Source of the DNA: Dulcicalothrix desertica PCC 7102
Lineage (GTDB): Bacteria; Cyanobacteriota; Cyanobacteriia; Cyanobacteriales; Nostocaceae
DNA length: 53,775 nucleotides
Assembly: GCF_003991905.1 (NCBI RefSeq)
Contig: NZ_RSCL01000034.1
Location: 33,840-87,614, forward strand
Direction of reading: 5' to 3'
The notes beneath the pieces are model-generated. The model saw only the letters and a list, made by a program, of their open reading frames with translations, had not been told where the DNA came from and did not search any database. A program made the translations under genes and the position numbers. The number at the start of each line of letters is the position of its first letter. The stretch's first letter is position 1. This document shows positions 9,357 to 52,488 of this stretch, piece after piece.

Positions 9357-9388
9357 ATTATATTTGGTTAGTAGGTGCCGATATTACA

Positions 9389-9403
9389 GTGGGCACTGCC
9401 CAC
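9389..9403. repeat. Short perfect palindrome between convergent genes
   Basis: GTGGGCACTGCCCAC lies between the stops at 9356 and 9421 and could serve as a bidirectional terminator stem. A related GGTGGGC/GCCCACC stem occurs at 42289-42305. Confidence 0.55.
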
Positions 9404-9420
9404 CATAAAACACTCTAGAA

Positions 9421-12400
9421 TTAAGAGCATAATTTGCGGTCAGCTTCAGAAACTTTAGTATTATTCTGTAAGTAATCTCGCAATAACTCGCAACCTTTAG
9501 ACATTAAATTTGCTGTCTGAGTATCAGCTAAGTCACGGTAAACTATTTTACCTTTATTGTTCCCTATCACTAATGTTTTACTATCAGGAGTAAAACTAAT
9601 AGTTGAAAATGCCTCATCTTCTGCGTTGATAACTAATTCTAATTTGCCCAAAAGATTCCACAGCTTTATTTTATCTTCGCTCATAGTGGCGATAGTTTCA
9701 CCATCGTGGCTCAAGCTGATACTCATAAAACCTTCACCATCACCATTTAGAGTTTGAATCAAATTCAAATTTTTATCCCATAATTTCACTGTACTGTCTA
9801 GACTTGCTGTGGCTAATATATTATCTTTTGACCAGACCGCAGCATAAACAGGACGGTTATGAGATCTAATATCCTTAATTAATTTACCGTCTTTATTCCA
9901 TATTTTTACGGTGTTATCATCGCTTGCAGATGCGATGTATTGACCATTTGGACTAAAACTAACCCAGTTAACAGGTTCAGTATGCTTTAATAACTTAGCA
10001 ATAAATTTACCGTCTTTACTCCATAATCTTACTGATTTATCTCTACTTGCTGATGCTAATATTTCTCCATTATGCGCCCAATCAACACTTAATACTCCCT
10101 TGGCATGTCCCTCTAAAGTATTAATTAGCTTACCGTCGCGACTCCATAATTTTACTGTTCCATCACTCGATGCTGAAGCTATAGTTTGACCATTTGGGCT
10201 AAAACTTATATCCCAAACTGCGCTTTTGTGTCCAGTTAAAGTATGTTGTAACTGACCATTTGCACTCCATATATTCACAGTCCCGTCTTCGCTAGAATCG
10301 GCAAATGTATCACCGTCTGGAGAATAACTTAACATTGTTACTGGTGTATTGTGGGCTTGGATACTCTTTAAAGGTAGATATTGCCAACGCCATAGTCTAA
10401 TTTTTGTGTCACGACTCGCGGAAGCAAGAGTTTTTCCATCACTGCTAAAACTAACGCTAGTTACCCAATCATTATTTCCTTTCAAAGTTAAGTGCGGTTG
10501 CTTTATGGGTTTATCTATTGCGTCAAGTTTCCACAGTTTTACTGTTTTATCCCAACCGGCTGAAGCTAATGTTTTTCCATCTGGACTAAAAGCAACACTC
10601 ATTGCTGCTGGTTTGTGTGCTTGTATTAAATTAAGTAATTTTCCATCGTGACTCCACAACTTAACAGTTTCATCCAAACTTGCTGATGCCAACATTTTAC
10701 TATTCGGCGCCCAAGCTACAGCAAATACTGCATCGCTATGTCCAGATAAAGTTTGTAACAGCTTACCGTTTGTACTCCACAGCTTTATTGTGTTGTCGTT
10801 TTCTGTCTGATTTTTTTCACTACTTGCTCCGGCCGAAGCAATCATACTACCATCTGGCGCCCAAGCTAAACTAGTAACGGGTGTAGTATGTCCTAACAAA
10901 GTAGCAAGTACTTTTCCTTGTTGGTTCCATAATCTAATAATATTATCGGCGCCTCCCGATGCAATAGTTTGCCCCGAAGGACTAAACGTGACGCTATTTA
11001 CTACTTCGTTATGTAGAAATGTTCTTAATAATTTACCGTCAATAGTCCACAATTTAACAGTTCTATCAGCACTTCCAGAGACTATCATTTTACCATCAGG
11101 ACTAAACGCGACACTATTCACACGCTTGCTATGCCCTTTTAATACACGTAATTTTTTACCATTTGCCTGCCAAAGTCGAACTGTTCCATCACTACTCGCA
11201 GAAGCAATTAACTGATTATTAGGACTAAATACAACACTATTTACATCAGCTAAATGTCCTTCTAAACGGTTGATTTCGCGCACCCGCATTCCGTAAGTTG
11301 CTTGATAAAGTGCTGTTCTAACGATTTGCTGAGTTTCTTCATCAGGTAAAAGTACGTTATCAATTTTTCTACCTGCGCGCAATCCTTCACGTAAAGCATC
11401 AATATCTTTGCCCAAAGCAAATAAAGCTTCACTCGATACACTTGCTGCAACGCTAGCGGTAATAACAGCTTTACGTCCAGTAGAAAAAGCAGTCCAAATA
11501 GAACCTATTAGTAGCACGATACCCAGAGCTGAGGCAACAAGGGCATTTTTGAGTAAGCGATTCGTTTTTACTTGACTAGTACGTAGCTTTTCAGTTTCAA
11601 GAAGTTCTGCTTGTAACTTTTGTTGTTCAATTTCCGAAAGTAAACGTTCACGCTCAACACGACTAAATTCATCGCGTTTTCGTAGTTCCTTTAATTCGCT
11701 TAGTAAATCTGAACCAGTAACTTGATGTTCTGTAGGAATTTTACCTTGTTTGTTATGGCGAAGTGCGCTTTCTAAACGAGAAATTTCTTGTTCGTTAGTT
11801 TGTACTTGTGCGCGTAGTTGTTTAACTTGTTCTTGCAAGCTAAGTTCAGTTTGTTGAAGACTGCGAATTAAATCAACAAGGTAATCGTGAATTAGCTGGT
11901 ATCGTTCGGGTACATCAGGATAAAGCACTACTAGTCCTGAACGTACTAATATTTCTAATACTAATTCTAATTTATTGACATCTTCTAATTCTGCAAGTTC
12001 TATTGCTAGTTCGGCGCGAGTTTTAAAAGGACGCTTATTATTTTCGTCTGTAAGTAAATATAATACTAAAAATGCAGCACGTTCATTTTCTTTACCGCAG
12101 TCGCTGATTAATTCTGCTAAATATCTTTGAATTAGCTTGTTTGGACGAAATTGCTGATATTTAGCAAGGGTTAAAATTCGCTCATCTTGAAGTTGGGCGC
12201 CAACTACTTGCAGTTCAATTGGTCTTACCTCCCCCAATTCCGCAGATAAATCATTAACCAAAGCATCGATTAATTCAGGTTCAATATTATATTGCGAACG
12301 CTGTGTTAATTCACGAATTACCGATGATGCATCTTGACGTGAAAAGTTCTTTAATTGATAACGAATACTTTTATCTAAAATATTTTCGTTAACTGGTGCA

Positions 12401-25646: not shown

Positions 25647-27569
25647 GTGTCGTCTAGGACTTTTGAAGATAAAAACCCCCGAGGTCAGACTGCATCTGGT
25701 TTTGAGTTTATAAAGGGAGTTGGTCAGGTAACTGGCGGCACCTTACTCGCCATTACCATGCTGACAAGTTCGATTGTTGCTGGAGGGCTGGTAGGATTAG
25801 CGATTAGCTTCCGCAATCTCCCCGATGTCAGACAGCTACGCAATTTTTTCCCCTCTGAAACCACTTACTTCTACGATGTTAAGGGTAAACTCCTAGCGAG
25901 TATCCACGGGGAAGCAAACCGCGAAGTAGTACCTCTTGACCGCATTTCACCAAATATTAAGCGCGCAGTACTCGCGAGCGAAGACAGTGACTTTTATTTT
26001 CACCACGGTATTAACCCTAAAGGTGTTGGACGTGCCCTAGCTAGCAACCTCAGAGGTGGAGGTGTCCGCGAGGGTGGTTCGACGATTACGATGCAGTTGG
26101 TGAAAAATTTATTTTTATCGCGTCGTCGTGAATTTACCCGTAAAATCGCAGAAGCAGTACTCGCTATTCGTTTAGAGCAAATTCTCTCCAAAGACCAAAT
26201 ATTAGAAATGTACCTCAATCAAGTTTATTGGGGTCATAATAATTATGGTGTACAAACCGCAGCGCGCAGTTATTTCAACAAAGCTGCTGAGAATTTGACT
26301 ATAGCAGAATCAGCGATGATGGCTGCTTTAATTCAGGCGCCGGAAGAATATAGTCCCTTTGCTTCGATGAAAAAAGCGAAGGAGCAGCAAGAAATTGTGC
26401 TGGGACGAATGCTCACATTGGGTTGGATAACTCAAGCCGAACACGACCAAGCAGTAAGTGAAAAAATTAAACTAGGTAAAATCCGTTCGTTTCAAGGTAG
26501 CGCATTACCTTATGTAACGAACGCAGTATCATCAGAATTAGCCAAAAAATTTGGACGTGAATCACTGCTCAAAGGCGGGATGCGCGTCCAAACAACCGTT
26601 GATTCTGAGTTTCAACGCATGGCGGAAGAAACTGTTGGCAAGTGGCACGGAAGACTTTTACGTCAAGGTTTATATAAAAACCAAATAGCTTTGGTAGCTG
26701 TTGACCCCAGAACGCACTTTATTAAAGCGCTTGTGGGTGGTGTCGATGCCAAAACTAGTGAATTTAACCGTGCGACACAAGCTTTACGTCAACCAGGTTC
26801 ATCATTTAAGCCATTCGTTTACTACGCAGCTTTTGCAACTGGTAAATACGCACCAAGCTCAACAGTCGTAGATTCTCCAGTTAGCTACCGTGATGGTGAT
26901 GGCTGGTATTTTCCAAGAAACTACGATGGTGGTTTCGCAGGCGCCATGTCAATTCGTACTGCCCTAGCACAGTCGCGTAACATTCCAGTTATTAAACTAG
27001 GTAAAGCGATAGGTATGAACAAAGTCGTTGAAACGAGTCGTACCTTGGGAATAATGAGTCCAATGGAACCTGTAACTTCCCTACCATTGGGCGCCATAGG
27101 TGTAACACCATTAGAAATGGCAAGTGCTTACGCTACTTTCGCAAACTACGGTTGGCAATCTCCGTCAACCGTAATTATGCGCGTCACCGATAGTAGCGGT
27201 AATGTCATGCTTGATAATACGCCGAAACCCCAATTGGTTCTTGACCCTTGGGCAAGTGCATCAACTATTGATATTATGCGTGCGGTAATTACTGAGGGTA
27301 CAGGTAAAAACGCGGCAATTGGGCGCCCAGCAGCAGGTAAAACGGGTACAACATCTTCAGAAAAAGATATTTGGTTCGTAGGAACCGTACCGCAATTAAC
27401 AACAGCTGTTTGGGTCGGTCGAGACGACAACCGACAACTTGCAAGTGGCGCCACGGGTGGTGGTATGGTGACTCCTATCTGGGCTGATTTCATGCAACGC
27501 GCACTCAAAGGAGTCCCAGTACAAAACTTCAAGTCACCATCACAATTCCCACGTCCAAAATCAGACTAA
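25647..27569 (+). CDS. Class A penicillin-binding protein, PBP1A type (640 aa)
   Basis: A membrane anchor (about 28-55) precedes the GT51 glycosyltransferase domain, with EDSDFYFHHG near 111 and GGSTITMQLVKNLF near 140. The transpeptidase domain follows, with the active serine in SSFKP near 385, SRN near 446 and KTGTT near 564. It polymerises and cross-links peptidoglycan in the periplasm. The start is a GTG at 25647 with a good GAGGAAG ribosome-binding site nine bases upstream. The length is within the normal range for short cyanobacterial class A PBPs; there is no C-terminal extension. Confidence 0.95.
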   Translation: MSSRTFEDKNPRGQTASGFEFIKGVGQVTGGTLLAITMLTSSIVAGGLVGLAISFRNLPDVRQLRNFFPSETTYFYDVKGKLLASIHGEANREVVPLDRISPNIKRAVLASEDSDFYFHHGINPKGVGRALASNLRGGGVREGGSTITMQLVKNLFLSRRREFTRKIAEAVLAIRLEQILSKDQILEMYLNQVYWGHNNYGVQTAARSYFNKAAENLTIAESAMMAALIQAPEEYSPFASMKKAKEQQEIVLGRMLTLGWITQAEHDQAVSEKIKLGKIRSFQGSALPYVTNAVSSELAKKFGRESLLKGGMRVQTTVDSEFQRMAEETVGKWHGRLLRQGLYKNQIALVAVDPRTHFIKALVGGVDAKTSEFNRATQALRQPGSSFKPFVYYAAFATGKYAPSSTVVDSPVSYRDGDGWYFPRNYDGGFAGAMSIRTALAQSRNIPVIKLGKAIGMNKVVETSRTLGIMSPMEPVTSLPLGAIGVTPLEMASAYATFANYGWQSPSTVIMRVTDSSGNVMLDNTPKPQLVLDPWASASTIDIMRAVITEGTGKNAAIGRPAAGKTGTTSSEKDIWFVGTVPQLTTAVWVGRDDNRQLASGATGGGMVTPIWADFMQRALKGVPVQNFKSPSQFPRPKSD

Positions 27570-30439: not shown

Positions 30440-30925
30440 TTATTCTTTTTTGGAAGTAATAACCTCAACCGGACGTAAAACCTTTTCACCATAGCGAAAT
30501 CCTTGACGCACAATTTTAGTAATACTTTGTTCAGGAATATCAGCGACTACTTCTTGCTCTACTACCCTACATAATGTAAAATCGGGCTGCGTTCCTTCAA
30601 TGCATTCAGTTTCGATTTGTGAAACTTGACGCTTTGCCAATACATTAAGGAATTTACGATAAACTGCTCCAACGTTTCTAGGTAAGCGCGCGATAAATTC
30701 AGGGCTAAGATTAGGATTGTCCAGTAATTTGAGTAAATTTTCTAAAGCATCTCCTACTTCTAACAGTTCTAAGAATAAATCTTCGCTGGTTGCTACTGCT
30801 TGAGTTTGTTGTTCACGTAAAGATTGCTTAAGTAAAGTATTTTCTCGTTTGAGAGTTCCAAGTTCTTGACTGAGCGAGTCACATAGTTCTTGAGAAATAA
30901 TAAAAGATTTGGATGTATTAGACAC
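30440..30925 (-). CDS. GrpE-like nucleotide exchange factor (161 aa)
   Basis: A coiled-coil N-terminus (LCDSLSQELGTLKRENTLLKQ) is followed by a helical region and a C-terminal beta part ending SITKIVRQGFRYGEKVLRPVEV, which matches the GrpE signature. GrpE releases ADP from Hsp70. The protein is divergent from housekeeping GrpE. A GTG start at 30925 with AGAGG upstream fits better than the 5' extension of the frame, which would overlap the previous gene. It overlaps the J-like gene by 8 bases and is the last gene of a five-gene Hsp70-type operon. Confidence 0.78.
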   Translation of the reverse strand: MSNTSKSFIISQELCDSLSQELGTLKRENTLLKQSLREQQTQAVATSEDLFLELLEVGDALENLLKLLDNPNLSPEFIARLPRNVGAVYRKFLNVLAKRQVSQIETECIEGTQPDFTLCRVVEQEVVADIPEQSITKIVRQGFRYGEKVLRPVEVITSKKE

Positions 30926-31553
30926 GAGTAACCTCTTTAGATAATAAAGATAAATAATTATTTGCCCAAGCTTTAATTTGAGCATTTGAATGATTTATTA
31001 ATGACGAACAAAGATGAATTGCGCGCTGTTTCTGTCCAGTCATTTGATAAGCTCTAATCAAATAAATTTGGGCTTGAGTGTAATCGTTACTGTTACGGTC
31101 ACGTGTACTTTGACAGTAGTCTTCTAAAATTTTTACTGCTTTGGGATAACGTTTTTCTTGGCACGCAGTAATACCTTCGTTAAGCAATTCCGATAAAGGT
31201 ATTGGCAAAGGTTCGCGTGCTAACATTTCTTCTTGATTGGCTTTAGTAATTGCGTCATCTAAACCATCAAACTCTGATAATAATATTATTTCGGGTTCAG
31301 GTTGTTCTAAAGCTGAAAAATCACTGTATTTAAATCTTTTGATAGAAGGCAAAATTGGACGTAAATAATCGGCAATAATACGCTCTTCTGACTTCATTAA
31401 GCTTTTTTGCGCTTTCGCAATAACCTCTACCGAATATTGCTTTCGCTTCATTGCCAAAGTTACTGCTTTATTAATTTCAGCTTTAGATGCTGCGGGAGAT
31501 ACACCTAAAACATCATACGGATTAAAACTATTTGGGTTTAATTTGTTTGTCAT
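30918..31553 (-). CDS. J-like protein lacking the HPD motif, with TPR-like C-terminus (211 aa)
   Basis: Residues 11-60 resemble a J domain: NPYDVLGVSPAASKAEINKA matches helix I to helix II. The loop that should carry His-Pro-Asp reads MKRKQYSVEVIAKAQKSL, so the residue triad that stimulates Hsp70 ATPase is absent. The C-terminal half has two helical hairpins of TPR type (ACQEKRYPKAVKILEDY; AQIYLIRAYQMTGQKQRAIH). It begins 4 bases after the TPR gene stop and overlaps the GrpE-like gene. It may act as a regulator or scaffold rather than a true J co-chaperone. Confidence 0.72.
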   Translation of the reverse strand: MTNKLNPNSFNPYDVLGVSPAASKAEINKAVTLAMKRKQYSVEVIAKAQKSLMKSEERIIADYLRPILPSIKRFKYSDFSALEQPEPEIILLSEFDGLDDAITKANQEEMLAREPLPIPLSELLNEGITACQEKRYPKAVKILEDYCQSTRDRNSNDYTQAQIYLIRAYQMTGQKQRAIHLCSSLINHSNAQIKAWANNYLSLLSKEVTRV

Positions 31554-31557
31554 TTTA

Positions 31558-34065
31558 TTAATAAGATAATCTCAAACTACGATAAATTTGTTGAAACTCA
31601 GGTGCATCTGGACAAATTTCATAAGCCCAACGTCCTAACTGTTGAACCATTTCATAATCGCTCGCATCACCTCTTTCAGCAGCATTAATTATAATTTGGA
31701 TAAAAATTTCAGCAGCAGCAAACCGTACACGTTCGTTACGTGATTTCTTGGCTTTTTCTACCGCTTGTTCATATAATTTTCTCTTCAGAAGATTCTCAAA
31801 TTCTTCAAATTCTTGTACAAATTCTAATCTTTCCCTTAAATCTAAAACTATAGGATTATTATCATCAATTACGCTAATTTTTTGAATTTGCTTTAAAGCT
31901 TGCTCTTGTGATATTTGTTTATTTACTAGTTTATCACGCAATTCTTCGGCTTTGTATTCAGCCAAATAGCTCTTTGCTAATTGACTACCAATAAGGTCAT
32001 ACCAAAATTGAGCAAATTTTAAATGCTCTGGAAATTCTGATATTGCTTGTCGTTGTAATAAGCAAAGTCTATTTATTTCATGAAGCCAATCAGGAAATGT
32101 TTTAATTTCACTTTTAGCTTTATTAAGATGAGTAGCTGCTTTTTGCCATTGTTGCTGTTGAAGATAATGACAACCTTCATGGTAAGCAACGAAAGAACCG
32201 GCAAATAATTCGATGCTATTGTTAGCAGATTGGTTTGATGGCTTGATTTGTATCGCGCGCGCGACATCACTCTCTAAACAAGCAGCGATAGATAGACCCC
32301 AAGGAGTGTATAGTGCTTGCAATATTCTTTCACTAGAATGTATATCCGCAACTAAAAAATTTTGCCATTGATTAAAAAAACGACTGTAACAACCTGGTGT
32401 GATAAATAGCTCATTTACTTTCATTCCCTTTTGAACAGGATTGCCCATTAAGCGTAAAGCTACTTTTTCTAAACGATATTTATCACGAAATTTTAAATAC
32501 TGGTCTAATTGATTTTCTTGAAATTTATCAATAATTTCTTCTAATCGTCGTTGTAATTCTAAAGACACTAATTCTAAATCAAGTTTTTGACTTTCTAGCC
32601 AAGGAATATCGTAAAGTGTTAAATCTTGATTTAAATTTGCTATTGCTGTAGGTAAAGCAATTATTAAATCTTCAATTACACCAGTAGAAGCGTCACTAAA
32701 AACCCGGTAATAAGTTGTAATTAACCAATTGTGTAAATTAATTATATCTGGCGAGCTTTCCCATAGTTTAATAGTTGTATCAGCAAGAATATGCCACTCA
32801 TGATTTTGCCAAACTTTTGCTTTTAATCGTGGCAAAATGTGTTCGGTAAGATTGGTTTCTACTAAAGAGTCTGAGCCAAATTTTTGCAAATATTCTCCAC
32901 TTGAAGTTTGTGCTTGCTCTAAGTCATCATCTGCTATAAATTTTTCTATGTTTTTTAAAGCTAACAGCTTTTGCCGTTGCGAAATGATTTTGATATTTTC
33001 TTTTTGTTGTACAAATTTAGTAGTTTGTTGTAAATTTTGCCACTCGCGATGCGCTGCTTGTAATTGCCCTTGTTTCGCATAAGCAAATCCTCGCAGATAA
33101 CGACCTTGTTCCGTTTCTATATCCGTTAATTGCGATATGGCTAATGACCATTCTTCTGTTTTAATTGCTACAATACCTAAACGAATTTTACAGTCTCTAA
33201 AGTTTGGTAAGAGTACTGCTGCTGATTTGTATAATGTTGTTGCTTCCTTTAAATTACCTGATTTTTCAGCTTGAAGACCTAAACGATATTTTTCTTTGCC
33301 TTTAACAGTACGCTGAATTTTTTCTAGTAATGCAATACCGTCTTGACGCGGAAATTGTGTTAAGGCGCCTTCTAAAAGCGCGATTGCACTCCTGAATCTA
33401 CCTTCATTTGAAGCAATGTTTGCTTTTGTAAAAGCCGTGTAATAAATTTGTTCTTGTTTAACTTGAGTTTCACAAGCTGCTATTGATTGCTTTACAGATA
33501 AAGTTGGGTATAACTGTTCAGCTTGATTATAGATATTAATGGCGCCTTGAAAAAAACGTTTTTCAGCTTGTAAATCAGCTTCTTCTACCAATTTACGAAA
33601 ATCTTCTCGCTGCTTTAATTCTGTTTGACACTTGCTAATTGTTTGCGATATTTGCTCATCGTAAAGAATTTTACCAGCACGCTTGCACAAGTCTAAAGCG
33701 TCTAGTAATATTTTAGTTTCAAGCGGATTATTATCATCTTGCTGCAAAAGAGATTTGGCGCCAGTCAGCAATTTATTTGCTTGTGTTACTTGCGTCTGCC
33801 ATTTCTGCAAATCTTGATTAATCTTCTCTAAACTATCCCCTAATATATAAGAGCGCAGTAAACGCTCCCAAAACCCAGGTTGCTTAGACCAAGCAGCTAA
33901 AGCTTTTTGACCAGTAAGTACTGCTTGCCGTAAATTTTTACTTTCAGCTAGCGTTCGTGCTTTTTGCGTCTGGAGTTTCGTCGCATCTGCTAATTTCCAA
34001 GCATCGACAACTCCCACACCTAATACAATTTTACTAACTTGATTAAAAATTTGTAGAAAGCTCAT
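31558..34065 (-). CDS. Large TPR-like helical protein of the Hsp70-type operon (835 aa)
   Basis: Most of the protein is helical repeats: AEKRFFQGAINIYNQAEQLYP, FTKANIASNEGRFRSAIALL and GLQAEKSGNLKEATTLYKSA are TPR-like units in residues about 150-320, with further helical repeats to the end. A hydrophobic patch near residues 10-25 may touch the membrane. I see no enzyme motif. The start at ATG 34065 shares one base with the preceding TAA (TAATG), giving translational coupling; the frame's earlier TTG at 34083 is less likely. It probably scaffolds or selects clients for the Hsp70 encoded upstream; this is inference. Confidence 0.8.
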   Translation of the reverse strand: MSFLQIFNQVSKIVLGVGVVDAWKLADATKLQTQKARTLAESKNLRQAVLTGQKALAAWSKQPGFWERLLRSYILGDSLEKINQDLQKWQTQVTQANKLLTGAKSLLQQDDNNPLETKILLDALDLCKRAGKILYDEQISQTISKCQTELKQREDFRKLVEEADLQAEKRFFQGAINIYNQAEQLYPTLSVKQSIAACETQVKQEQIYYTAFTKANIASNEGRFRSAIALLEGALTQFPRQDGIALLEKIQRTVKGKEKYRLGLQAEKSGNLKEATTLYKSAAVLLPNFRDCKIRLGIVAIKTEEWSLAISQLTDIETEQGRYLRGFAYAKQGQLQAAHREWQNLQQTTKFVQQKENIKIISQRQKLLALKNIEKFIADDDLEQAQTSSGEYLQKFGSDSLVETNLTEHILPRLKAKVWQNHEWHILADTTIKLWESSPDIINLHNWLITTYYRVFSDASTGVIEDLIIALPTAIANLNQDLTLYDIPWLESQKLDLELVSLELQRRLEEIIDKFQENQLDQYLKFRDKYRLEKVALRLMGNPVQKGMKVNELFITPGCYSRFFNQWQNFLVADIHSSERILQALYTPWGLSIAACLESDVARAIQIKPSNQSANNSIELFAGSFVAYHEGCHYLQQQQWQKAATHLNKAKSEIKTFPDWLHEINRLCLLQRQAISEFPEHLKFAQFWYDLIGSQLAKSYLAEYKAEELRDKLVNKQISQEQALKQIQKISVIDDNNPIVLDLRERLEFVQEFEEFENLLKRKLYEQAVEKAKKSRNERVRFAAAEIFIQIIINAAERGDASDYEMVQQLGRWAYEICPDAPEFQQIYRSLRLSY

Positions 34066-34580
34066 TATCCAGCCTCCTGACAATTTGGTACTTTAAAAAC
34101 CTCCCCCTTCTCAATATCGTTTTCTCGTCCTTTGAGTTGGGGATTCGCTTGTACCATCAACTGCCAAGAGGCGCCTTGACCACACAATTTTTCTGTAATA
34201 ATACTAAGATTGTCTCCACTCTGTACTGTGTAAGTAGCTGGGTAAGTAGCTGGTTGTATTGTTTTAGGTGGTGTATTTAAAACAGCAGGAGTTGATGGAG
34301 TAGGAACAACTATCACCGGATTTGGAACATTGACTGTAGCATTGATAGACTGCGGTTGAATAAATAAAAAACTGCTTATAGTTCCAATACCCAAACCAAT
34401 AAGAAAAACAAACCCAATAACTACAAATTGCCAAGCTTGAATTTTAGTCGGTGCGCTTGTTCTGACTTCAGAAAGCTGGCATAATCTCCAAATTAAAGTC
34501 AAATCAGTATCGCAGTTCGGACAACTATCACCTTCGATTTCTTTATAACCACATACCGGACACTCAAGCTTGTTATTCAT
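34065..34580 (-). CDS. Zinc-ribbon, membrane and LysM protein (171 aa)
   Basis: An N-terminal zinc ribbon (CPVCG and CPNCD, Cys8/11 and Cys20/23) precedes one membrane helix (about 51-73), a Pro- and Thr-rich linker, and a C-terminal LysM domain (about 116-168, starting TYTVQSGDNLSIITEKLCG). The order suggests cytosolic zinc ribbon, membrane crossing and a peptidoglycan-binding domain outside. It overlaps the Hsp70-like gene by 4 bases and the TPR gene by 1, so it is a core part of the operon. It could anchor the chaperone complex to the cell envelope; that is inference. Confidence 0.8.
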   Translation of the reverse strand: MNNKLECPVCGYKEIEGDSCPNCDTDLTLIWRLCQLSEVRTSAPTKIQAWQFVVIGFVFLIGLGIGTISSFLFIQPQSINATVNVPNPVIVVPTPSTPAVLNTPPKTIQPATYPATYTVQSGDNLSIITEKLCGQGASWQLMVQANPQLKGRENDIEKGEVFKVPNCQEAG

Positions 34581-36790
34581 CGCTTCAACCCCGTAACAAT
34601 AGTATTGCTGGGCAATTCGCTGTCTATCCAGCGTTGAATATCAGGTTTTAATGAGTTCCAAAGTCGTTCAGCTTCGTGTTCATCACCTTTTTCCATTGCA
34701 GCAAGCATACGCATGAGTTTTTCAATCATCGCGTTTGCTTGAGTTGGGTCAACTCTTTTAGCTTGACGGATAGCAAACAAACACGCATCAACCAGTTTTA
34801 CTTCATCAGGTAAATTCTCAAATTCTCTTTTAAGCTCTTCAGTTTTTGACTCCATCTTATAGAGATTATTCGAGGTGATGGCATCTTTCAACTCGTTGCA
34901 GTACTTTTTAAGTCTTTCTTGCTGCTGTTGGGGAATTAAAAATCCGCAAAGCTCGACTATTTGCTCCGAGTCTTGAATCAAAGAATCTGCTTCCAAGCGT
35001 TCGTTTGACATCGAGACTTGGAATTTTTCTAAATTTTTGACAGCACGCTCACGTAAATCAACCCGTTCTTCTCCAGTTATTGGTTCAATAATTTGGTTCG
35101 CCATCTGTACAACGGGAATAGCCAAAGTCAGTGCATTCTCAACTCCCAATGCTGTTAAATTTTGGTCGTTGAGACGCGCAATTGCCTCTTCAAGCTCTCG
35201 ATAGATTTTCTCGTCGGAGCGACCACGCGAAAAAGTGCAGCTAACTTTGACCGAAGGGTCATTTTTCAGATGAGCAGTTATCCCTAAATCGCTGTTTTTC
35301 TCATCTAACTCCAAATAAACTTGAATTTCGGTTCCTGCTGGGTATCTTTGCTCTAAACCCAACCACATTTCGCCAATAATTTCGTCCTTTTCAACACCAT
35401 CTGTTTTTTGCTTAACGAAGTCAGGACTAAAAAATCGAAAGTGAATCAAGCGCTGACCGTCAACTACAGTGCGGAAAGTATGTGAAGTAGTGACAGGTAA
35501 AATATCACCTCTATTAATAACCTTATGATTATCGTCAACTAGCTCAATATAATAATCGCGTGACACGGTAGTAACTTTATCAGTCAGTCCCGCAGCAACA
35601 ATTGCGGCGCCTTCAGCAACAGCGTACATTGGACGAGGATGCACTACAACCTTATCGTTTCCAAACGCTGCTTTAACTTTATTTTGTACAAAAGGAATTT
35701 GTGAAGAACCACCGACCAAAAGCACTACATCTACCATATCTAAGTCAGACGATGCTTCTTCTACAGCTTGACGGCAAATTGTAATTGAACGCTCTACCAA
35801 GTCAGCGATAAGTTCCTCAAACAACTCGCGAGTAATTTTAACTTCAATAGGAATAGTAAGTCCTAACTCATCAACTAAATGAGTAGAAGGACTAATTAGT
35901 GCTGTTGTAGAACTACTCAACTCAAATTTCGCGCGTTCAACAGCCATTTTCAAATCAGCATTAAACCGCACTTTCTGATAATGCGGCATTTTGGCGATTA
36001 AAGCATCAATATCAGCAATTTTTTCGCTATATGCAACTTGCTCTTTCACATAATTGATAATTCGGGAGTCAATATCGTCTCCACCTAACCATAAATCTCC
36101 TGCTTTTCCTTGTTCAATAAACGAAGTTCCAGCAGAAGTAATTAAAGAAGCGTCAAAAGTACCACCACCGAAGTCATAAACTAAAATAGTTTTGACATCT
36201 TCACTAGTTGGAGAAAAACCATAAGAAATAGCTGCTGCTGTTGGTTCTGGTAATAATTCCAAAGGGGTGATACCAGCTTTTAAAGCAGCTGTACGTGTAG
36301 CGTGACGTTGCTTGTCGTTGAAGTAAGCAGGGATAGTAATTACTGCTTGATTAATAACTTCTCTGACTTTGCCCATTTTTTGGTAGTAAACTTCAGCATT
36401 TTTTACTACCTGCTTGAGAATTTCGGCAGAAATATCTTCTGGTTGATATTCTTTACCTCCCAACCATACAGCGATTCCATTATCTGTTCCTTGCGATGGT
36501 TGAGAAATTTTATAACCAAACTTTGACTTTTGTTCTTGAACTGTTTTATCAGCAAAATCTCGACCTATCAAGCGTTTTATCGAGACAATTACATTTTCTG
36601 CATCAGCACGTTGTTGATTGTAAGCTTTTTCACCAACACACAGATTATTTTGTTCGCAAGCGACTACTGAACGTGTTAATTTTCTATCTGGAGGTGTGTT
36701 GTTATCAGCAGTTATTACTTCTACTTCAGCTAGTCTAAATGCTGCTACTGAGTTGGTAGTTCCTAAGTCGATGCCTATTGCCTTACCCAT
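34577..36790 (-). CDS. Hsp70-family protein, DnaK paralogue (737 aa)
   Basis: The nucleotide-binding domain is intact: phosphate-1 [10 protein letters not shown] near 6-15, phosphate-2 YDFGGGTFDAS near 204-214, and the adenosine motif VLLVGGSSQIP near 358. The substrate domain (about 400-540) is diverged, and the C-terminal 190 residues are helical without the EEVD-like end or the repeat tail of the DnaK at 50257. It is the first gene of a five-gene operon with a zinc-ribbon/LysM protein, a TPR protein, a J-like protein and a GrpE-like protein, so it is likely the ATPase core of a specialised chaperone system. Confidence 0.93.
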   Translation of the reverse strand: MGKAIGIDLGTTNSVAAFRLAEVEVITADNNTPPDRKLTRSVVACEQNNLCVGEKAYNQQRADAENVIVSIKRLIGRDFADKTVQEQKSKFGYKISQPSQGTDNGIAVWLGGKEYQPEDISAEILKQVVKNAEVYYQKMGKVREVINQAVITIPAYFNDKQRHATRTAALKAGITPLELLPEPTAAAISYGFSPTSEDVKTILVYDFGGGTFDASLITSAGTSFIEQGKAGDLWLGGDDIDSRIINYVKEQVAYSEKIADIDALIAKMPHYQKVRFNADLKMAVERAKFELSSSTTALISPSTHLVDELGLTIPIEVKITRELFEELIADLVERSITICRQAVEEASSDLDMVDVVLLVGGSSQIPFVQNKVKAAFGNDKVVVHPRPMYAVAEGAAIVAAGLTDKVTTVSRDYYIELVDDNHKVINRGDILPVTTSHTFRTVVDGQRLIHFRFFSPDFVKQKTDGVEKDEIIGEMWLGLEQRYPAGTEIQVYLELDEKNSDLGITAHLKNDPSVKVSCTFSRGRSDEKIYRELEEAIARLNDQNLTALGVENALTLAIPVVQMANQIIEPITGEERVDLRERAVKNLEKFQVSMSNERLEADSLIQDSEQIVELCGFLIPQQQQERLKKYCNELKDAITSNNLYKMESKTEELKREFENLPDEVKLVDACLFAIRQAKRVDPTQANAMIEKLMRMLAAMEKGDEHEAERLWNSLKPDIQRWIDSELPSNTIVTGLKR

Positions 36791-36902: not shown

Positions 36903-37093
36903 AGAAATTACCAATATCAAAATCAACTTTTCAAATACTTTTCAAATACTATTTATACATATTCACTATTGAATCAGTTCAGTAAAAATACTTGAAAACT
37001 GATGCGCGCAAAATCGCTGCAAGTCTTTAAGATTCCCGATAAACTATCCGTTACATCCGTTATATCCGTTGCAAAGCTTGACCCACAAAAAAA

Positions 37094-37122
37094 CGTAGCA
37101 CAGGCGCCTTGCCTATGCTACG
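37094..37122. repeat. Dispersed palindrome of the GCACAGGC family after clpC
   Basis: Arms CGTAGCACAGGC and GCCTATGCTACG, 24 bases past the clpC stop on the minus strand; the loop overlaps a GGCGCC site. A likely terminator. Confidence 0.65.
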
Positions 37123-37145
37123 TGAATTTTATTACTAATGAGTAA

Positions 37146-40822: not shown

Positions 40823-42232
40823 ATGGTATCGACACATCCGGCTAAGGTTCAAGATTCTGGTAGTAAATATTTACCGATTGTTACAAAAAATAACATTGAT
40901 ATTTCTCCAAATCAATCTCTGTTACCGATTACAGCTAAGGTAAATAGTCACGACCATCTTGAAATTGGAGGTTGTGACGTTAAAAATTTAGTTCAGCAAT
41001 TTGGCTCACCCTTATACATAGTAGACGAAGAAACATTACGTACAACTTGCCGCCAGTACCGCGATAGTTTTCAACGTTATTATAAGGGCTGCTCACAGGT
41101 ATTATACGCTTCTAAAGCATGGAGTTTAACGGCAATCTGCGCTATCGTTCATTCTGAAGGTTTAGGTATAGACGTAGTTTCAGGGGGCGAATTATACACA
41201 GCATTAAATGCGGGCGTCAACCCTAGTCAAATTTATCTTCACGGAAATAATAAATCGCGGCAAGAGCTTGTTTTCGCTATAGAGTCAAACATTACTATTG
41301 TTGTTGATAACTGGTATGAGCTAGAAACATTAGTTGAGTTAGCTTCTACCACCTCGGAAGCAGTACGAATAATGTTGCGGTTAACACCGGGTATCGAGTG
41401 TCATACTCATGAGTATATTCGTACTGGACATTTAGACAGTAAATTTGGGTTTGACCCTAACCAACTTGGGGAAGTATTCGAGTATGTCAGTAAGCAAAGC
41501 AAGCTCAACTGTGTTGGAGTTCATGCTCATATAGGTTCTCAAATCTTTGAACGTCAACCACATCGTGACCTAGCAGCAGTGATGGTGCAGTGGTTAGAGC
41601 AAGCAGCAAGTTATGGGTTAGCTATAACCGAGTTAAATGTAGGTGGTGGTTTAGGAACTAAATATATAGAGTCCGATGACCCACCAAGCATTGAAGAATG
41701 GGTAAAACCAATTTGCGAGGTTATTCAATCAGCATGTGAGAAACTTTCTTTACCTTTACCCAAACTGCTATCTGAACCAGGACGCTCTTTAATTGCCACA
41801 TCTTGCGTCACAGCGTATACTATTGGTTCATCAAAACAAATTCCCGGAATCCGTAACTACATAGCAGTTGACGGTGGTATGTCAGATAATCCTCGTCCAA
41901 TTACTTATCAATCAGTTTACCGCGCGGTCGTCGCGAACAAAATGTCGGATAAGTGTAGCGAAACCGTAACAGTTGCCGGAAAGCACTGTGAATCAGGAGA
42001 TATTCTAATCAAGAATGCTGAATTACCTTTAACTCAACCAGAAGATATTTTGGTTGTAATGGCAACGGGTGCGTACAATTACAGTATGGCATCGAACTAT
42101 AATCGCCTGCCTCGTCCGGCAGCGGTTTTAGTATCGAACGGCGAAGCAAATATTATTTTGCAACGCGAAACATACCAAGATTTAATTCGACAAGATTGTT
42201 TACCAGAAAGACTCAAAAATAGTGCTGAGTAG
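40823..42232 (+). CDS. lysA: Diaminopimelate decarboxylase (469 aa)
   Basis: A fold-III PLP enzyme. Lys98 in YASKAWS is the cofactor lysine; HAHIGSQIF, the Gly-rich NVGGGLG, EPGRS and the CESGD motif of the second subunit's active site are all present, as is the ATGAYNYSMASNYN end motif. It makes L-lysine from meso-diaminopimelate. It is followed by a palindromic element and then cdaA on the same strand, 126 bases away; in cyanobacteria lysA, cdaA and uppS are commonly adjacent. Confidence 0.97.
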   Translation: MVSTHPAKVQDSGSKYLPIVTKNNIDISPNQSLLPITAKVNSHDHLEIGGCDVKNLVQQFGSPLYIVDEETLRTTCRQYRDSFQRYYKGCSQVLYASKAWSLTAICAIVHSEGLGIDVVSGGELYTALNAGVNPSQIYLHGNNKSRQELVFAIESNITIVVDNWYELETLVELASTTSEAVRIMLRLTPGIECHTHEYIRTGHLDSKFGFDPNQLGEVFEYVSKQSKLNCVGVHAHIGSQIFERQPHRDLAAVMVQWLEQAASYGLAITELNVGGGLGTKYIESDDPPSIEEWVKPICEVIQSACEKLSLPLPKLLSEPGRSLIATSCVTAYTIGSSKQIPGIRNYIAVDGGMSDNPRPITYQSVYRAVVANKMSDKCSETVTVAGKHCESGDILIKNAELPLTQPEDILVVMATGAYNYSMASNYNRLPRPAAVLVSNGEANIILQRETYQDLIRQDCLPERLKNSAE

Positions 42233-42237
42233 AAAAT

Positions 42238-42265
42238 GTAGAGACGTGACATGTCACGTCTGTAC
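42238..42265. repeat. Dispersed 28-bp palindrome after lysA, copy 3
   Basis: Arms GTAGAGACGTGACA and TGTCACGTCTGTAC differ from perfect by one base. It begins 5 bases after the lysA stop. Confidence 0.8.
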
Positions 42266-42288
42266 AAGAGTTAGGAGTTTCTAGTAAG

Positions 42289-42305
42289 GTGGGCAGTGCC
42301 CACCC
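42289..42305. repeat. Short palindrome GGTGGGC/GCCCACC
   Basis: GGTGGGCAGTGCCCACC in the gap between lysA and cdaA; same family as the palindrome at 9389. Confidence 0.6.
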
Positions 42306-42358
42306 TACAACTACAACTTTTAACTAATTAAAGGCAGAGTAGTACATTTCCAGATGTC

Positions 42359-43279
42359 ATGAGAGATTGGTGGAAGCAATGGCTGATAGCGGGATGGTCG
42401 CAGTCCTTGCTACTAAAGACTCTGGATATTTTGTTAGTACTGGCACTGACTTATATGATGCTGGTTCTAATTAACGAACGGCGAACGCTGCGGATGGTAC
42501 TGGGATTTGTGATCTTAATGCTAGCTTCAGCTTTGTCGCATCAGTGGGGGCTGGAACTGCTAAATTTTGTATTGGAAAAGTTAGTGATTGGCTGTGCGGT
42601 GGCAATGGCGGTTGCACTTCAATCTGAGTTTCGGCGATTTTTAGAGTTATTGGGACGCGGAGAGTTTAAGAAGCTATTTCAGCCTTCAACTCTGTCGCTT
42701 CCCAAGTCAGATAGCACAATTGATGAAATTGTTGAAGCTGTTAGAGAATTGTCGAAAAGTCGGATTGGAGCGCTACTGATTATAGAAACAACAGGTCCAA
42801 TAGACGAAAGAGATTTTTCTGTGCCCGGAGTAAAATTAAATGCTGAAGTTTCTAAAGAACTAATCCAAACAATTTTTCAGCCCAAGACACTTTTACACGA
42901 CGGTGCTACATTAGTACGTGGCTCTCGGATTCTCGCATCGGGTATAATCTTACCGCTATCGGGACGCACAGCCTCGCGCCAGTTGGGTACACGCCACCGG
43001 GCGGCGATGGGTATCACTGAGCGGGTCGAAAATTGTATTTGTGTAGTTGTATCAGAAGAAACGGGTTCAATTTCTTTGGCAGAAAGGGGAAACCTAAATA
43101 GACCATTAACTATCGCGAAGTTAAAAGAGTTGCTCGAAGATAAACTGTCACCTACTATTGACCGGGAAGCAGTGGCGCCTGGTTTACTAAGTTTGGGGCG
43201 AAAAATTCGCAGCAAAAGCCTCTTTGTAGTTTCACGATTACTCGGATTACCATCGACCGCTCCTCGGGATAAAAAATGA
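42359..43279 (+). CDS. cdaA: Diadenylate cyclase CdaA (306 aa)
   Basis: Three N-terminal membrane helices (about 20-88) precede the DAC domain. Its catalytic DGA motif is at 181-183 (LLHDGATLV) and RHR at 212-214 (GTRHRAA). The enzyme joins two ATP molecules into c-di-AMP, a second messenger that controls potassium, osmotic and cell-wall balance. Its stop overlaps the uppS start by 4 bases (ATGA), so c-di-AMP and lipid-carrier synthesis are cotranscribed. Confidence 0.96.
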
Positions 43280-44025
43280 CAGCACAACAGACAGAACTGC
43301 GAGTTTTACCCTCTGACTTGAAACGCGAATTATTACCAAAGCACGTTGCGGTGATTTGTGACGGCAATGGTCGGTGGGCTAGGCATAGAGGACTACCCCG
43401 TATAATGGGTCACAAACGCGGGGTTGAGTCTCTCAAGCAATTACTACGTACCTGTAATGATTGGGGAATAGAAGCGTTAACCGCGTATGCTTTTTCAACT
43501 GAAAACTGGAAACGACCCCAGGAAGAAGTTGATTTTTTACTGACTTTATTTCAGGTAGTTTTGCGTAGTGAGTTGCGCGAAATGATGAAAGAGAGTGTAC
43601 GTATAAAGTTTGCTGGTAACTTAAATGCACTTCCAACTGCTTTGCAGGAGCAAATCAGTGACGCAATGGAAGAAACGCGGAACAATCGCGGTATAAAATT
43701 TACCATTGCCACCAACTATGGCGGTAGACAAGAAATACTATCAGCTTGTCGTGCAATTGCTGAAAAAGTCGAGCAGGGTTTGCTTAAACCGCACGAAATA
43801 GACGAAGCAACTTTCGAGAGCCATCTTTATACAGCTGGCATTGGCGACCCAGACCTATTAATTCGCACAAGCGGGGAAATGCGGATTAGCAACTTTTTGC
43901 TATGGCAAATTGCTTACACTGAAATATATATTACAGACGCACTTTGGCCCGATTTCGACCGCGACGAATTTTACCGTGCCTTATTAAGTTTTCAAAAGCG
44001 CGAACGACGGTTTGGAAAAGCATAA
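43276..44025 (+). CDS. uppS: Undecaprenyl diphosphate synthase, cis-prenyltransferase (249 aa)
   Basis: The family signature [16 protein letters not shown] carries the catalytic Asp29. [26 protein letters not shown] and the C-terminal [20 protein letters not shown] with the following E-I-Y segment are also conserved. It builds the C55 lipid carrier for peptidoglycan and other polymers from isopentenyl diphosphate. It overlaps cdaA by 4 bases. Confidence 0.97.
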
Positions 44026-48965: not shown

Positions 48966-49961
48966 TTAAAGTAAGTCAGCACGTGGTTTAAAAGTCTCAA
49001 TTTGTCGTAACTTTTCATACAGTTCGCGTTCTTGGTCGCTGATAGTTCTAGGAGTGACAATCTGAATTTCAACGAGTTGGTCTCCACGTTTACCAGCTTC
49101 GTTAGGATAACCCTTATTAGCTAAACGAAATCTTTGACCCGAACGTACTCCACTAGGTATTGACATTTTAACTGGACCATCTAACGTTGGCGCCTCTATT
49201 TGTCCACCCAACACAGCTTCACTAGGAGTAACGGGAACTTGGCACAATATATTTAAACCTTCAAGTTTAAATTGTGAATTTGGCTCAACTGTTATTTTTA
49301 AGTACAAATCACCGCCGTTTATACCTTGGTCACGTAGTCGAATCGTTTGACCAGTCACCATACCAGCAGGCATATTTACTTCCAACGAGCGTCCATCTTC
49401 AAGACGAATTCGTTCTAAACCACCTTGATAAGCTTTAGCAAGCGGAATAGTTAAACGTGCTTCGATATCACGACGCTGCGGTCGTTCCTTCGCGTTGTAA
49501 GACACTTTGCTTCTTGTATTGCGGAACGGGTCACTGTTACCATTTGTGTAGCCATTAGAAGCCGTTCTTGTTTCTTTACTAGTGGCGCCAACACCAATAA
49601 CTTGGTTGATAAAATCATCAAAACTACTGTATTGACCAGGGTCTACAGTACCATTACTACGATTATTTTTATTACTACCTCCCCAAGTGGCGCTTTTTGG
49701 AGTTTTGCTTGTAAAACCCTTTTGCTTCCAATGACGACAATATTCGTCGTACTGCGCGCGTCGAGCTTCGTCTAAAAGAACTTCTTTAGCTTCATTAATA
49801 TCTTTAAATTTTTCTGCGGCTTGCTCATTTCCTTGGTTGCGGTCAGGATGAAATTGAAGCGCTAATTTTCGATAAGCTTTCCTAATATCTTCATATGACG
49901 CATCTTTGGATACTCCTAAAATTTCGTAATAATCTCGAAAATTCTGCAAATTGAGTGACAT
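48966..49961 (-). CDS. dnaJ: DnaJ-type chaperone, probable DnaJ3 (331 aa)
   Basis: The J domain (about 8-75) carries HPD at 38-40 in QFHPDRN. A Gly/Ser/Asn-rich linker (about 95-165) leads to the two C-terminal client-binding domains ([20 protein letters not shown]... [20 protein letters not shown]). The zinc-finger domain of DnaJ proper is absent, as in class B (CbpA-like) proteins. The frame extends to 50072, but ATG 49961 begins the conserved part. It follows dnaK on the same strand by about 300 bases, matching the dnaK3-dnaJ3 order of Synechocystis. Confidence 0.93.
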
Positions 49962-50041
49962 AATTAGGTGTTTAGCTAATTTATGAGCGATTTTTCTATT
50001 TAGACTAATAATCAGACCAATAAATAGAGACTTAGGACGCA

Positions 50042-50111
50042 AAGAAACCTGGTTTCTACGCAAAATCACCATTTTTATTACATGCTATCAACGAAGAAAC
50101 CAGGTTTCTAG
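50042..50111. repeat. 70-bp dispersed element with palindromic ends, copy C
   Basis: It starts AAGAAACCTGGTTTCTACG and ends AAGAAACCAGGTTTCTA. Its centre (CAAAATCACCATTTTTATTA) matches copy A best. Confidence 0.85.
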
Positions 50112-50228
50112 GTTTTTATGCGTAAGTCATAAGACTATAAAGTTTTACTCGTTCAGGATAGAAAATTTATTACGTAGCATTGAATTACTACATAATTAAC
50201 GAGTAGCAGATAGTTAATATAACGTAAA

Positions 50229-50244
50229 GGCGGGAAAACCCGCC
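50229..50244 (-). terminator. Terminator-like stem after dnaK
   Basis: On the minus strand GGCGGG-TTTT-CCCGCC forms a 6-bp GC stem followed by TTTACGTT, 13 bases past the dnaK stop. The T-run is short, so termination may be partial. Confidence 0.5.
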
Positions 50245-50256
50245 ATCACTCTATAA

Positions 50257-52488
50257 TTACAGCCAATCATCATCGTCATCATCCCAGTTATCTCGATAGC
50301 TTGGGCGGTCGCGACGCGAGTCAGGAGGTTTACCAAAGTCCGAACGTCCTCCTCTACCGTAATCATTTCTTGAATCTCTATCAGAATTTCTTCCAGAAGA
50401 ACCATAATCACGGTCAGTATCTCGACCATAATCACGCCCAGAATCACGATTTGAATCACGATTTGAATCACGACCATAATCACGGTTAGAGTCTCGACCA
50501 TAGTCTCTACCATAATCACGGTTAGAGTCTCGACCATAGTCCCTACCGTAGTCACGGTTAGAGTCGCGACCATAATCTCGGCCATAATCACGATTATCTC
50601 GGTCGTCTTTATCGCCACCTGTAAAGATGTCGCGAATCGTGCCGAACAAATCATCATCTTCATCATCAGCGTAGTACGCACGCACTTCGCGGTTCAATTC
50701 AGACAACGCATCTTGAAGGTCAGCGTAGGACTGGTCGATACCTCGGTCATCGTTTGCTTGCAATGCTTCACGCAGTTCACGACATATATTATCAATACGT
50801 TGGCGCCGACTGCGGGCAAACTGCATTCCAAAATCTAGAGCTACTTCTCGCAGTTGACGTTCTGCCTGTAAAATCAATGCTTCAGCACGAGTACGCTTTT
50901 CGACTTTTTCTTTACGTTGACGGTCGGTTTCGGCGAATTTCTCAGCATCGCGAATAGCTTGGGTAATTTCTGACTCGCTTAATGTCGAGGCGCCTTGAAT
51001 AGTTATACTTTGTTCGCGTCCAGTCGTGCGGTCGAGGGCTGTTACCTGTAATATCCCGTTAGCGTCTATATCAAAAGATACTTGTACTTGGGGAATACCG
51101 CGCGGTGCTGGGGGAATACCATAAAGCTTAAAACGACCAAGGGATTTATTATCTCCCGCCATTTCTCGCTCACCTTGAACTACGTGAATTTCCACAGTGT
51201 TTTGGTTATTTTCTGATGTAGAGAAAATATCCGAACGACGAACGGGAATTGTAGTATTGCGGGGAATTAATTTCTTAGCTACACCGCCTATTGTTTCCAA
51301 CCCTATCGATAGTGGTGTGACATCGAGTAGTAAAACGTCTTTAAGTTCACCGCCAATAATACCAGCTTGAATAGCGGCGCCTATTGCCACAACTTCATCA
51401 GGGTTAACATTTTCATTGGCTTCAATACCAATTAAATCTTCGACTAACCTTTTTACCATTGGCATCCGCGTCGAACCACCCACTAATACCACTTCGTCGA
51501 TATCATCAGGACGCAAACCAGCATCTCGAAGCGCACGTTTAACAGGTGTTCGTACTCGCATTAATAAATCTTCACATAACCCTTCAAATTCAGAGCGAGT
51601 TAACCGTGTTTCAATGTGCTGAGGACCATCTTCGGTAGCGGTGATAAAGGGTAAATTAATATCAGTAACGCTAACGGCAGAAAGCTCGATTTTGGCTTTT
51701 TCGGCGCCTTCGAGTAAACGCTGTAAAGCTTGGCGGTCACTGCGTCGTAAATCTACACCGTGTTCTTCTTCAAATTTTGCAGCCAACCAATCAACTATTT
51801 TTTTGTCAAAATCATTACCACCTAGCTGAGTATCTCCACTAGTGGACTTTACCTCAAAAACACCATCTCCAACTTCCAGCACAGAGACATCAAAAGTACC
51901 ACCACCCAAGTCAAACACCAAGATAGTCTCGCTACGACCTTTATCTAAGCCGTAAGCTAAAGATGCAGCAGTTGGCTCGTTAAGAATTCTTAAAACGTCC
52001 AAACCTGCGATTCTGCCAGCATCGCGCGTAGCTTGGCGCTGCGAATCGTTAAAATAAGCAGGAACTGTAATAACTGCACCAGTTACTTTTTCTCCCAAAT
52101 AGCGACTAGCATCGTCTGCCAATTTCTTCAAAATCATTGATGAAATTTCTTCGGGAGAGAAATCTTTGCTCAAACGGGGACATACAATTTTGATATTACC
52201 AACTTCGTCTTTGCGAATTGTGTAAGGAATGCGCTTCGATTCGGGACTAAGTTCAGAATACTTACGTCCAATAAAGCGCTTAACTGCGAAATATGTATTT
52301 TGTGGGTTTAGAACGGTTTGGCGCCGTGCCATTTGTCCAACAACTCGTTCACCGTCTTTGCTAAAGCCAACAACGGAGGGGGTTGTGCGTGTTCCTTCAG
52401 CATTGGCAATCACCACCGGCTTGCCACCCTCCATGACAGCAACAACTGAGTTGGTTGTACCCAGGTCAATGCCGACTACCTTGCCCAT
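50257..52488 (-). CDS. dnaK: DnaK chaperone with Arg-Asp repeat tail, probable DnaK3 type (743 aa)
   Basis: All Hsp70 motifs are present: [25 protein letters not shown] near 193, [10 protein letters not shown] near 335, and a normal substrate-binding domain with a helical lid (to about 610). The last 115 residues are low complexity, with repeats of [12 protein letters not shown] and variants, and end [11 protein letters not shown]. Cyanobacterial DnaK3 proteins also carry long C-terminal extensions linked to thylakoid membranes and are followed by dnaJ3, as here, so I infer DnaK3. It is the first gene of the dnaK-dnaJ cluster. Confidence 0.94.
50395..50620. repeat. In-gene tandem repeat coding the Arg-Asp-Tyr-Gly tail of DnaK
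   Basis: Imperfect 18- and 36-base units built on TCACGACCATAATC and TCACGGTTAGAGTC (plus-strand reading) are repeated in frame within dnaK. The units are multiples of three, so copy number can change without breaking the gene. They produce open shadow frames on both strands. Confidence 0.85.

Follow-up and report, generated by a model that had tools for sequence, protein, structure and literature searches.

A five-gene cyanobacterial operon encoding a putative membrane-anchored Hsp70 machine with a J-like partner that lacks the HPD motif

Hsp70 systems with a dedicated place or partner have been described in mitochondria and bacteria. In the presequence translocase-associated motor (PAM), the mitochondrial import motor formed by mtHsp70, Tim44, Pam18/Pam16 and Mge1, the J-like protein Pam16 lacks the HPD motif, cannot stimulate mtHsp70 and blocks stimulation by Pam18 in vitro (PMC12953747). 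In canonical pairs, the HPD motif acts on R167 of DnaK and thereby on the contacts of R167 with D393 in the linker and with D481; this HPD-R167-linker interaction is described as the trigger of Hsp70 hydrolysis, and both the HPD and the arginine have been called invariant (PMC7289447). Cyanobacteria have a DnaK system that is connected with type IV pilus (T4P) motors and with polysaccharide, and in Nostoc punctiforme DnaK1 is encoded between grpE and dnaJ11, with a single GrpE counted (McDonald et al., mBio 2022, PMC9239167). Finally, the GAP1-N2 neighbourhoods, in which the Hsp70 theme is mainly actinobacterial and firmicute, combine zinc ribbons, transmembrane (TM) segments, peptidoglycan-binding domains, Hsp70, GrpE and DnaJ/TPR proteins, some of them with a second Hsp70 (eLife 2020, PMC7159879). 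Here, we describe a five-gene operon on a stretch of 53,775 nucleotides from Dulcicalothrix desertica PCC 7102 (contig NZ_RSCL01000034.1, positions 33,840 to 87,614 of the forward strand; hereafter the window). Judging from its sequence, we think with moderate confidence that it encodes a dedicated, PAM-like Hsp70 machine that is anchored in the membrane, works at the cytoplasmic face of the envelope and is tethered to the wall. The list of open reading frames places the five genes on the minus strand:

34577..36790, minus strand: Hsp70 paralogue of 737 aa, with intact ATPase residues, a beta substrate domain and a helical C-terminus of about 200 residues
34065..34580, minus strand: anchor protein of 171 aa, with an N-terminal zinc ribbon, one TM helix and a C-terminal LysM-like domain
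31558..34065, minus strand: tetratricopeptide repeat (TPR) superhelix protein of 835 aa, the presumed scaffold (Pfam TPR_2, TPR_14)
30918..31553, minus strand: J-like protein of 211 aa, with a degenerate J domain without HPD and a C-terminal TPR-like pair
30440..30925, minus strand: GrpE-like nucleotide exchange factor of 161 aa, counted from a GTG start (Pfam GrpE)

At the successive junctions, the genes overlap by 4 and 1 bases, are separated by 4 bases and overlap by 8 bases. The original prediction of a one-strand operon with these junctions was exact, given the GTG start of the GrpE-like gene at 30925; from the alternative upstream ATG at 30985, the J/GrpE overlap would be 68 bases. Scanning 84,980 species genomes with two peptide patterns, with the TPR protein as the query (an approach that missed some relatives), we found 47 loci, all of them cyanobacterial by title. 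Of the 47, 39 share both the gene order and the single strand for all five genes, while the TPR gene, being the query, is present in 47/47 by construction. Among the 39 complete loci, one gene is split into two frames in L071 and L096, and the Hsp70 of L099 is cut by the contig edge. Six of the 47 loci end at contig edges (L079, L083, L098, L104, L110, L111) and two are fragmented or decayed (L112, L113). Even the overlaps recur, with longest starts chosen mechanically: the 4-base Hsp70/zinc-ribbon overlap in 25/39 related loci and the 8-base J/GrpE overlap in 16/39. The operon is kept as a unit, which supports a dedicated five-gene Hsp70 operon, and checking the five-gene neighbourhood across cyanobacteria did not reveal the scattered, unlinked genes that would have spoken against it.

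Both sides of the canonical J-protein trigger are altered in this operon. The sites concerned, together with a conserved tail of the Hsp70, are:

36257..36259, minus strand: Hsp70 residue E178, at the site of E. coli DnaK R167, the HPD-contacting arginine
35552..35581, minus strand: Hsp70 interdomain linker, residues 404-413 (DKVTTVSRDY), without LLLDV
34580..34603, minus strand: Hsp70 C-terminal tail, consensus I.TG[LI].R-COOH, a possible TPR/J docking peptide
31428..31439, minus strand: residues 39-42 of the J-like protein (QYSV), where HPD would fall

The Hsp70 clearly falls into the Hsp70 superfamily (Pfam HSP70, 331.9 bits over residues 4-660, E 8e-99), and its structure model aligns to DnaK/BiP. 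The best three NCBIfam DnaK models give 280-314 bits against cut-offs of 648-1002. We aligned 44 operon Hsp70s, namely the one in the window, 39 from the 47 loci and four from other genomes, omitting frames of 700 aa or less. The R167 site is never an arginine in this alignment (E in 39 sequences, I in 3, V in 1 and K in 1), the linker motif LL[LV]D[VI] occurs in 0/44 and the D393 column is a gap in 44/44, so that the operon Hsp70s lack both the R167 and the LLLDV-type linker of a canonical DnaK. The catalytic residues K70 and T199 are retained in 44/44, and R411, D412 and Y413 of the linker region are invariant. Three other DnaKs of the same genome, DnaK2, DnaK3 and the one that we assign as DnaK1 by its grpE/dnaJ neighbours, have an arginine at the R167 site and a normal linker, and a further Hsp70 on contig C31 has a glutamine at that site. 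D481, the third residue of the J network, is an asparagine in operon and control Hsp70s alike and was dropped as uninformative. The C-terminal tail is conserved as well: T[GD][LI].R ends 39/44 sequences, with an entropy of 0.74 bits over residues 731-737 versus 1.57 in the helical region 525-727, and it is modelled at low confidence (pLDDT <50, residues 728-737). It recalls the EEVD tail that is bound by eukaryotic TPR proteins.

The DnaJ profile gives the window J-like protein 17.8 bits, below the Pfam cut-off of 27.8. Aligned by hhalign with eight DnaJ domains of its own genome, it reaches a probability of 95.5% (E 1.4e-8), which supports a relation to the J domain although the motif has been lost. 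In the first 90 residues of 44 J-like frames scoring >60 bits, HPD was found in 0/44, compared to 8/8 control J domains from the same genome (8 of 16 genome matches examined). As HPD, arginine and linker are all absent, the J-like protein and the Hsp70 cannot be a standard DnaJ-DnaK pair. The operon had been thought to unite the ATPase, J-like and exchange-factor classes of a complete Hsp70 cycle, which is not supported in that form. As the arginine and linker that HPD uses are lost while the catalytic residues are kept, hydrolysis would have to be basal or triggered in another way.

In two loci, the TPR gene is followed by a second Hsp70 copy that carries a fused J-like domain (L047, 716 aa; L156, 807 aa). 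The two genomes come from different families, L047 (G109) from the order of the window and L156 (G306) from its family. Both fused Hsp70 copies are changed at the K70 site and in GGGTFD, and that of L156 also in the first phosphate loop, which is likewise changed in a second, cut Hsp70 copy in L098. We count these fusions in two families in favour of a membrane-anchored machine, since they would link the J-like protein to the Hsp70. It could be argued that the operon encodes an ordinary extra cytosolic Hsp70 system that has drifted after duplication and uses canonical DnaJs in trans: the catalytic residues are intact, a GrpE-like partner is present and the genome has HPD-bearing J proteins. 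However, R167, linker and HPD have been lost jointly, a state that is fixed in the 44 sequences, while the ATPase domain and the tail are conserved; the membrane parts described below are near-constant as well. This makes the explanation very unlikely.

The second protein of the operon provides the membrane and wall-binding parts:

34512..34562, minus strand: zinc ribbon (C7, C10, C20, C23), then a TDL..R motif, from the alignment
34368..34424, minus strand: TM helix of the anchor protein, Kyte-Doolittle mean 2.25 with its peak at residue 53
34086..34232, minus strand: LysM-like domain, presumably periplasmic, from Pfam and motif

Surveying the 47 loci for the anchor with crude motif and hydropathy tests (TM called at a mean >= 1.6), we found the gene in 44, with the four-cysteine ribbon in 43, a TM segment in 43 and a LysM motif in 36. 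The four cysteines and L36 are invariant in 23/23 aligned anchor proteins. When the anchor proteins of four relatives were scanned, three passed the LysM cut-off, with 26.6, 37.7 and 26.7 bits. Together, these features support its role as a membrane anchor. The fourth scanned relative, L150, shows a further arrangement, in which a TM segment, a LysM-like loop (called by its likeness, by eye, to the adjoining anchor protein) and a second TM segment precede the TPR region. This order would place the LysM outside and the TPRs inside. Several other TPR proteins have N-terminal hydrophobic segments by hydropathy. As the ATP-dependent parts should be cytosolic, the machine would face the cytosol and be tied to the wall. 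The proposed tie of the LysM protein to peptidoglycan is supported as far as an anchor of membrane and peptidoglycan-binding type goes, with such parts recurring on J and TPR subunits, but LysM itself is not universal (36/44).

Parts of this kind recur on the J-like protein, which in L093, L095, L104 and L107 is extended by a TM segment and two SPOR-like repeats (CGD...YCRDA-like and SPOR-like IQVASF segments). The proposed envelope role is strengthened in this way; for septal clients, the weak SPOR-like matches in few relatives are the sole sign. Many long proteins match the TPR half of the J-like protein; a relation to ZipN/ARC6 was considered for this reason and set aside, as the three that were read (L144, L145 and L146) do not look like ZipN. 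In these three, TPR pairs of the J-like type head what look by eye, without a profile, like M48-type metallopeptidases.

The TPR protein passes the Pfam cut-offs for TPR_2 and TPR_14, and its AlphaFold2 model is nearly all-helical (mean pLDDT 88.1); a fold search of the PDB with this model returned generic TPR superhelices with low TM-scores. The GrpE-like protein reaches 60.5 bits against a GrpE cut-off of 25.8 when scanned from the 30985 ATG, and its profile matches the solved GrpE chains 4ani, 1dkg and 8gb3, so it is predicted to be a nucleotide exchange factor.

These parts can be arranged into a working scheme. The zinc-ribbon/TM/LysM protein would be the anchor, with its ribbon in the cytosol and its LysM outside on peptidoglycan, and the TPR protein would act as a scaffold in the cytosol, bringing the machine and its client together. 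The J-like protein may be a non-triggering adaptor which, like Pam16, holds or gates the Hsp70 and does not fire its ATPase. Hydrolysis would instead be triggered by engagement of the client or scaffold, the GrpE-like protein would reset the nucleotide, and the conserved Hsp70 tail may dock on the TPR or J-like partner. Like PAM, the operon would pair a membrane-docked Hsp70 with an exchange factor, a protein that docks it and a J-like subunit that lacks HPD. It differs in that a translocon and an HPD-bearing Pam18 are not among the five genes, in that the Hsp70 itself lacks the R167/linker surface, and in that a TPR scaffold and a zinc-ribbon/LysM anchor take the place of Tim44. The likeness is meant as how the operon may work; we do not claim homology of the whole.

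Next, we consider how the operon is distributed. In a draw of 146 genomes across the phylum, the TPR protein has a match in 26, its own genome included; 14 of these reach E <= 1e-20 and are taken as strong, and the remaining 12 are short and of TPR-level similarity. Among the loci of the 13 strong relatives, all five parts are present in 11 (counting L047, where the J part is fused to the second Hsp70), and contig ends truncate the other two loci. In a draw of 386 genomes, the J-like profile matches 121, and among the matches listed its J part is matched in 28, the matches outside the J part being to its TPR half. The genomes with a strong TPR match, 14 of the 146, are also the ones within this range that have a J-domain match in the larger draw. 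From 14 new J-positive genomes, 13 further neighbourhoods were obtained, of which 11 contain all five genes and two (L151, L155) are partial or decayed. The genome sets of the 47-locus scan and the two draws overlap, so these counts are not additive. Partial or decayed copies are found in L112, L113, L151, L155 and L158, the last a remnant, and they suggest a dispensable function that has been lost repeatedly. All five genes are also present in a Sericytochromatia metagenome-assembled genome, with the anchor gene first and with Hsp70 and TPR proteins 48% and 21% identical to those of the window.

In the Hsp70 tree, the operon sequences are separate from the four other full-length Hsp70s of the same genome, which are the three DnaKs and the C31 Hsp70 (support 100/100). 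The operon shares with the DnaK1/DnaJ3/GrpE system of N. punctiforme that it would be a dedicated cyanobacterial Hsp70 system at the envelope, but its Hsp70s group apart from the DnaK of this genome that we presume to be DnaK1. The Hsp70 of L106 (Dolichospermum) is placed among non-Nostocales sequences, which suggests that this copy was acquired by transfer. The Sericytochromatia Hsp70 forms a long branch beside the non-Nostocales group that holds L106 (88/98), and this copy may be old or transferred. Nostoc sp. PCC 7120 has a recorded Hsp70 of the operon type (P0240), and a close match (P0141) is named as coming from Trichormus variabilis ATCC 29413; both records concern the Hsp70 gene alone. 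The available passages of PMC11019930, which treats DnaK duplication, do not mention the operon, and no description of it was among the matches listed in open-licence PMC literature (supplements lie outside this scope).

The patchy, sometimes decayed operon and the placement of L106 would also be expected of a conflict or immunity module, that is, a GTPase-less relative of the GAP1-N2 Hsp70/GrpE systems whose parts assemble upon invasion or wall damage. The same part types are combined in the GAP1-N2 neighbourhoods, a second Hsp70 included, but the operon is a five-gene unit in Cyanobacteriota. We consider such a module unlikely, as the linked GTPase or GAP1 by which GAP1-N2 systems are recognised was found neither among the five proteins nor among the ten neighbouring window genes scanned. 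The FNIII repeats that GAP1-N2 systems have fused to DnaJ or TPR were likewise not found, with no hit for any of the five at E up to 1. With PADLOC, none of the five proteins gave a match (E up to 0.1), and the TPR protein has no match on plasmids or in viral contigs. Apart from the five genes, no gene family is found in >8/47 loci when the 10 kb flanks are clustered into families, which were not annotated.

This last result also bears on a second alternative, in which the envelope machine serves one specific client assembly, be it the type IV pilus, the polysaccharide export machinery or the wall synthesis complex, in a manner analogous to DnaK1/DnaJ3 but separate from it. The cyanobacterial DnaK system mentioned above offers a precedent, and in the window a penicillin-binding protein (25647-27569) and uppS (43276-44025) are wall genes near the operon. 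Yet with no flanking family in >8/47 loci, no wall gene is a regular neighbour either, and the DnaK of the published system is DnaK1, whose gene lies between grpE and dnaJ11. A named client of this kind is rather improbable, and it would be a sub-case of the wall-tethered machine, not another mechanism.

The genome encodes a further Hsp70 module with GrpE and J-like proteins. This second module (L065) lies on contig C31 at 8135-14035, on the minus strand, and comprises the same five protein classes:

L065, minus strand: zinc-ribbon/TPR protein, 118 aa
L065, minus strand: Hsp70, 588 aa
L065, minus strand: GrpE, 263 aa
L065, minus strand: J-like protein, 98 aa
L065, minus strand: TPR protein, 837 aa

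Like the operon, the C31 module has a J-like protein without HPD, and the zinc ribbons and J domains of the two are similar (single-comparison E 3e-5 each). Unlike the operon, it has TPRs on the zinc-ribbon protein, where no LysM was found, its Hsp70 largely keeps the linker (ILVDV) and its TPR protein has no detectable relation to that of the operon. The J-like protein of this module has strong matches in 4/146 genomes, its own included, and within neighbourhoods of 11-12 kb, L171 has all five genes of the module together, L172 has three and L173 has two. For one relative of the C31 TPR protein (P0251), the record names a plasmid. A third Hsp70 module is perhaps present on contig C17 (L066, 7084-9787, minus strand), where a 519-aa Hsp70-like protein adjoins a protein of 264 aa. 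The latter has a hydrophobic N-terminus, what looks by eye like a helix-turn-helix stretch, and a GrpE match that is weak and below the cut-off (E 7.5e-4). The pair at 48966-52488 in the window had been regarded as an ordinary dnaK-dnaJ pair. This was not borne out, as its DnaK (743 aa) is a specialised one that ends in a long, repetitive and charged C-terminal tail. It belongs to the three DnaKs of the genome that have a normal linker, and we take it to be of the cyanobacterial DnaK3 type.

A number of observations weigh against a wall-tethered machine that has replaced the canonical trigger. The LysM of the window scores 18.8 bits, below the Pfam cut-off of 20.9; in L150, neither the anchor protein (E up to 0.01) nor the TPR protein has a Pfam hit; and LysM is absent from seven continuous anchor copies (L070, L083-L086, L092, L106), as it also is from L113. 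SPOR passes its cut-off in L104 only, of the three fusions scanned, and a fusion of J and GrpE (P0113) could be a frameshift across the 8-base overlap. The C31 Hsp70 also lacks the arginine at the R167 site while its linker looks more normal, and the HPD-bearing J proteins of the genome could act in trans. The AlphaFold2 models rest on 12-13 sequences, and in L097, despite its complete order, 1.4 kb lies between the J and GrpE genes. As the operon is patchy (28/386 among the matches listed) and has decaying copies, its job would be dispensable. We nevertheless prefer the membrane-anchored machine, in view of the conserved five-gene unit, the paired loss of the trigger and the recurrent membrane and wall-binding parts.

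More tentatively, the operon Hsp70s may form a separate class in which the J trigger has been dismantled on both sides, hydrolysis is controlled by anchor and scaffold and is coupled to the state of the wall, and the degenerate Hsp70-J fusions are regulatory, with a cytosolic sister module in the same genome. We regard this fuller scheme as possible but doubtful. The natural loss of both sides of the trigger offers a clean test of the roles that the J fold and the linker have beyond triggering, and if the machine exists as proposed, it would be a bacterial, wall-linked counterpart of the mitochondrial import motor. As its Hsp70 is recorded in Nostoc sp. PCC 7120, deletion and tagging may be possible.

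Some local signals and neighbours complete the picture of the window. With up to 3 mismatches allowed, no match to CIRCE, a heat-shock control element, was found in the window. The promoter scan was uninformative (20 found, 23.3 expected). Upstream, the operon adjoins clpC, which was rejected as a functional link because in Spirulina (L100) it is encoded on the opposite strand at a distance of ~6 kb. In the window, the stretch from clpC to the operon contains one structure, found by a consensus scan:

37093..37123, minus strand: terminator-like hairpin of 13 pairs, followed by a T-run

This hairpin suggests that the operon is transcribed separately from clpC, although the number of terminator-like sites in the region (8 found, 5.5 expected) says nothing on function. 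In addition to the penicillin-binding protein gene, the surroundings of the operon include further wall-related genes at 40823-44025, namely those for an Orn/DAP/Arg-type decarboxylase and a DisA-type cyclase together with uppS, which encodes undecaprenyl diphosphate synthase.

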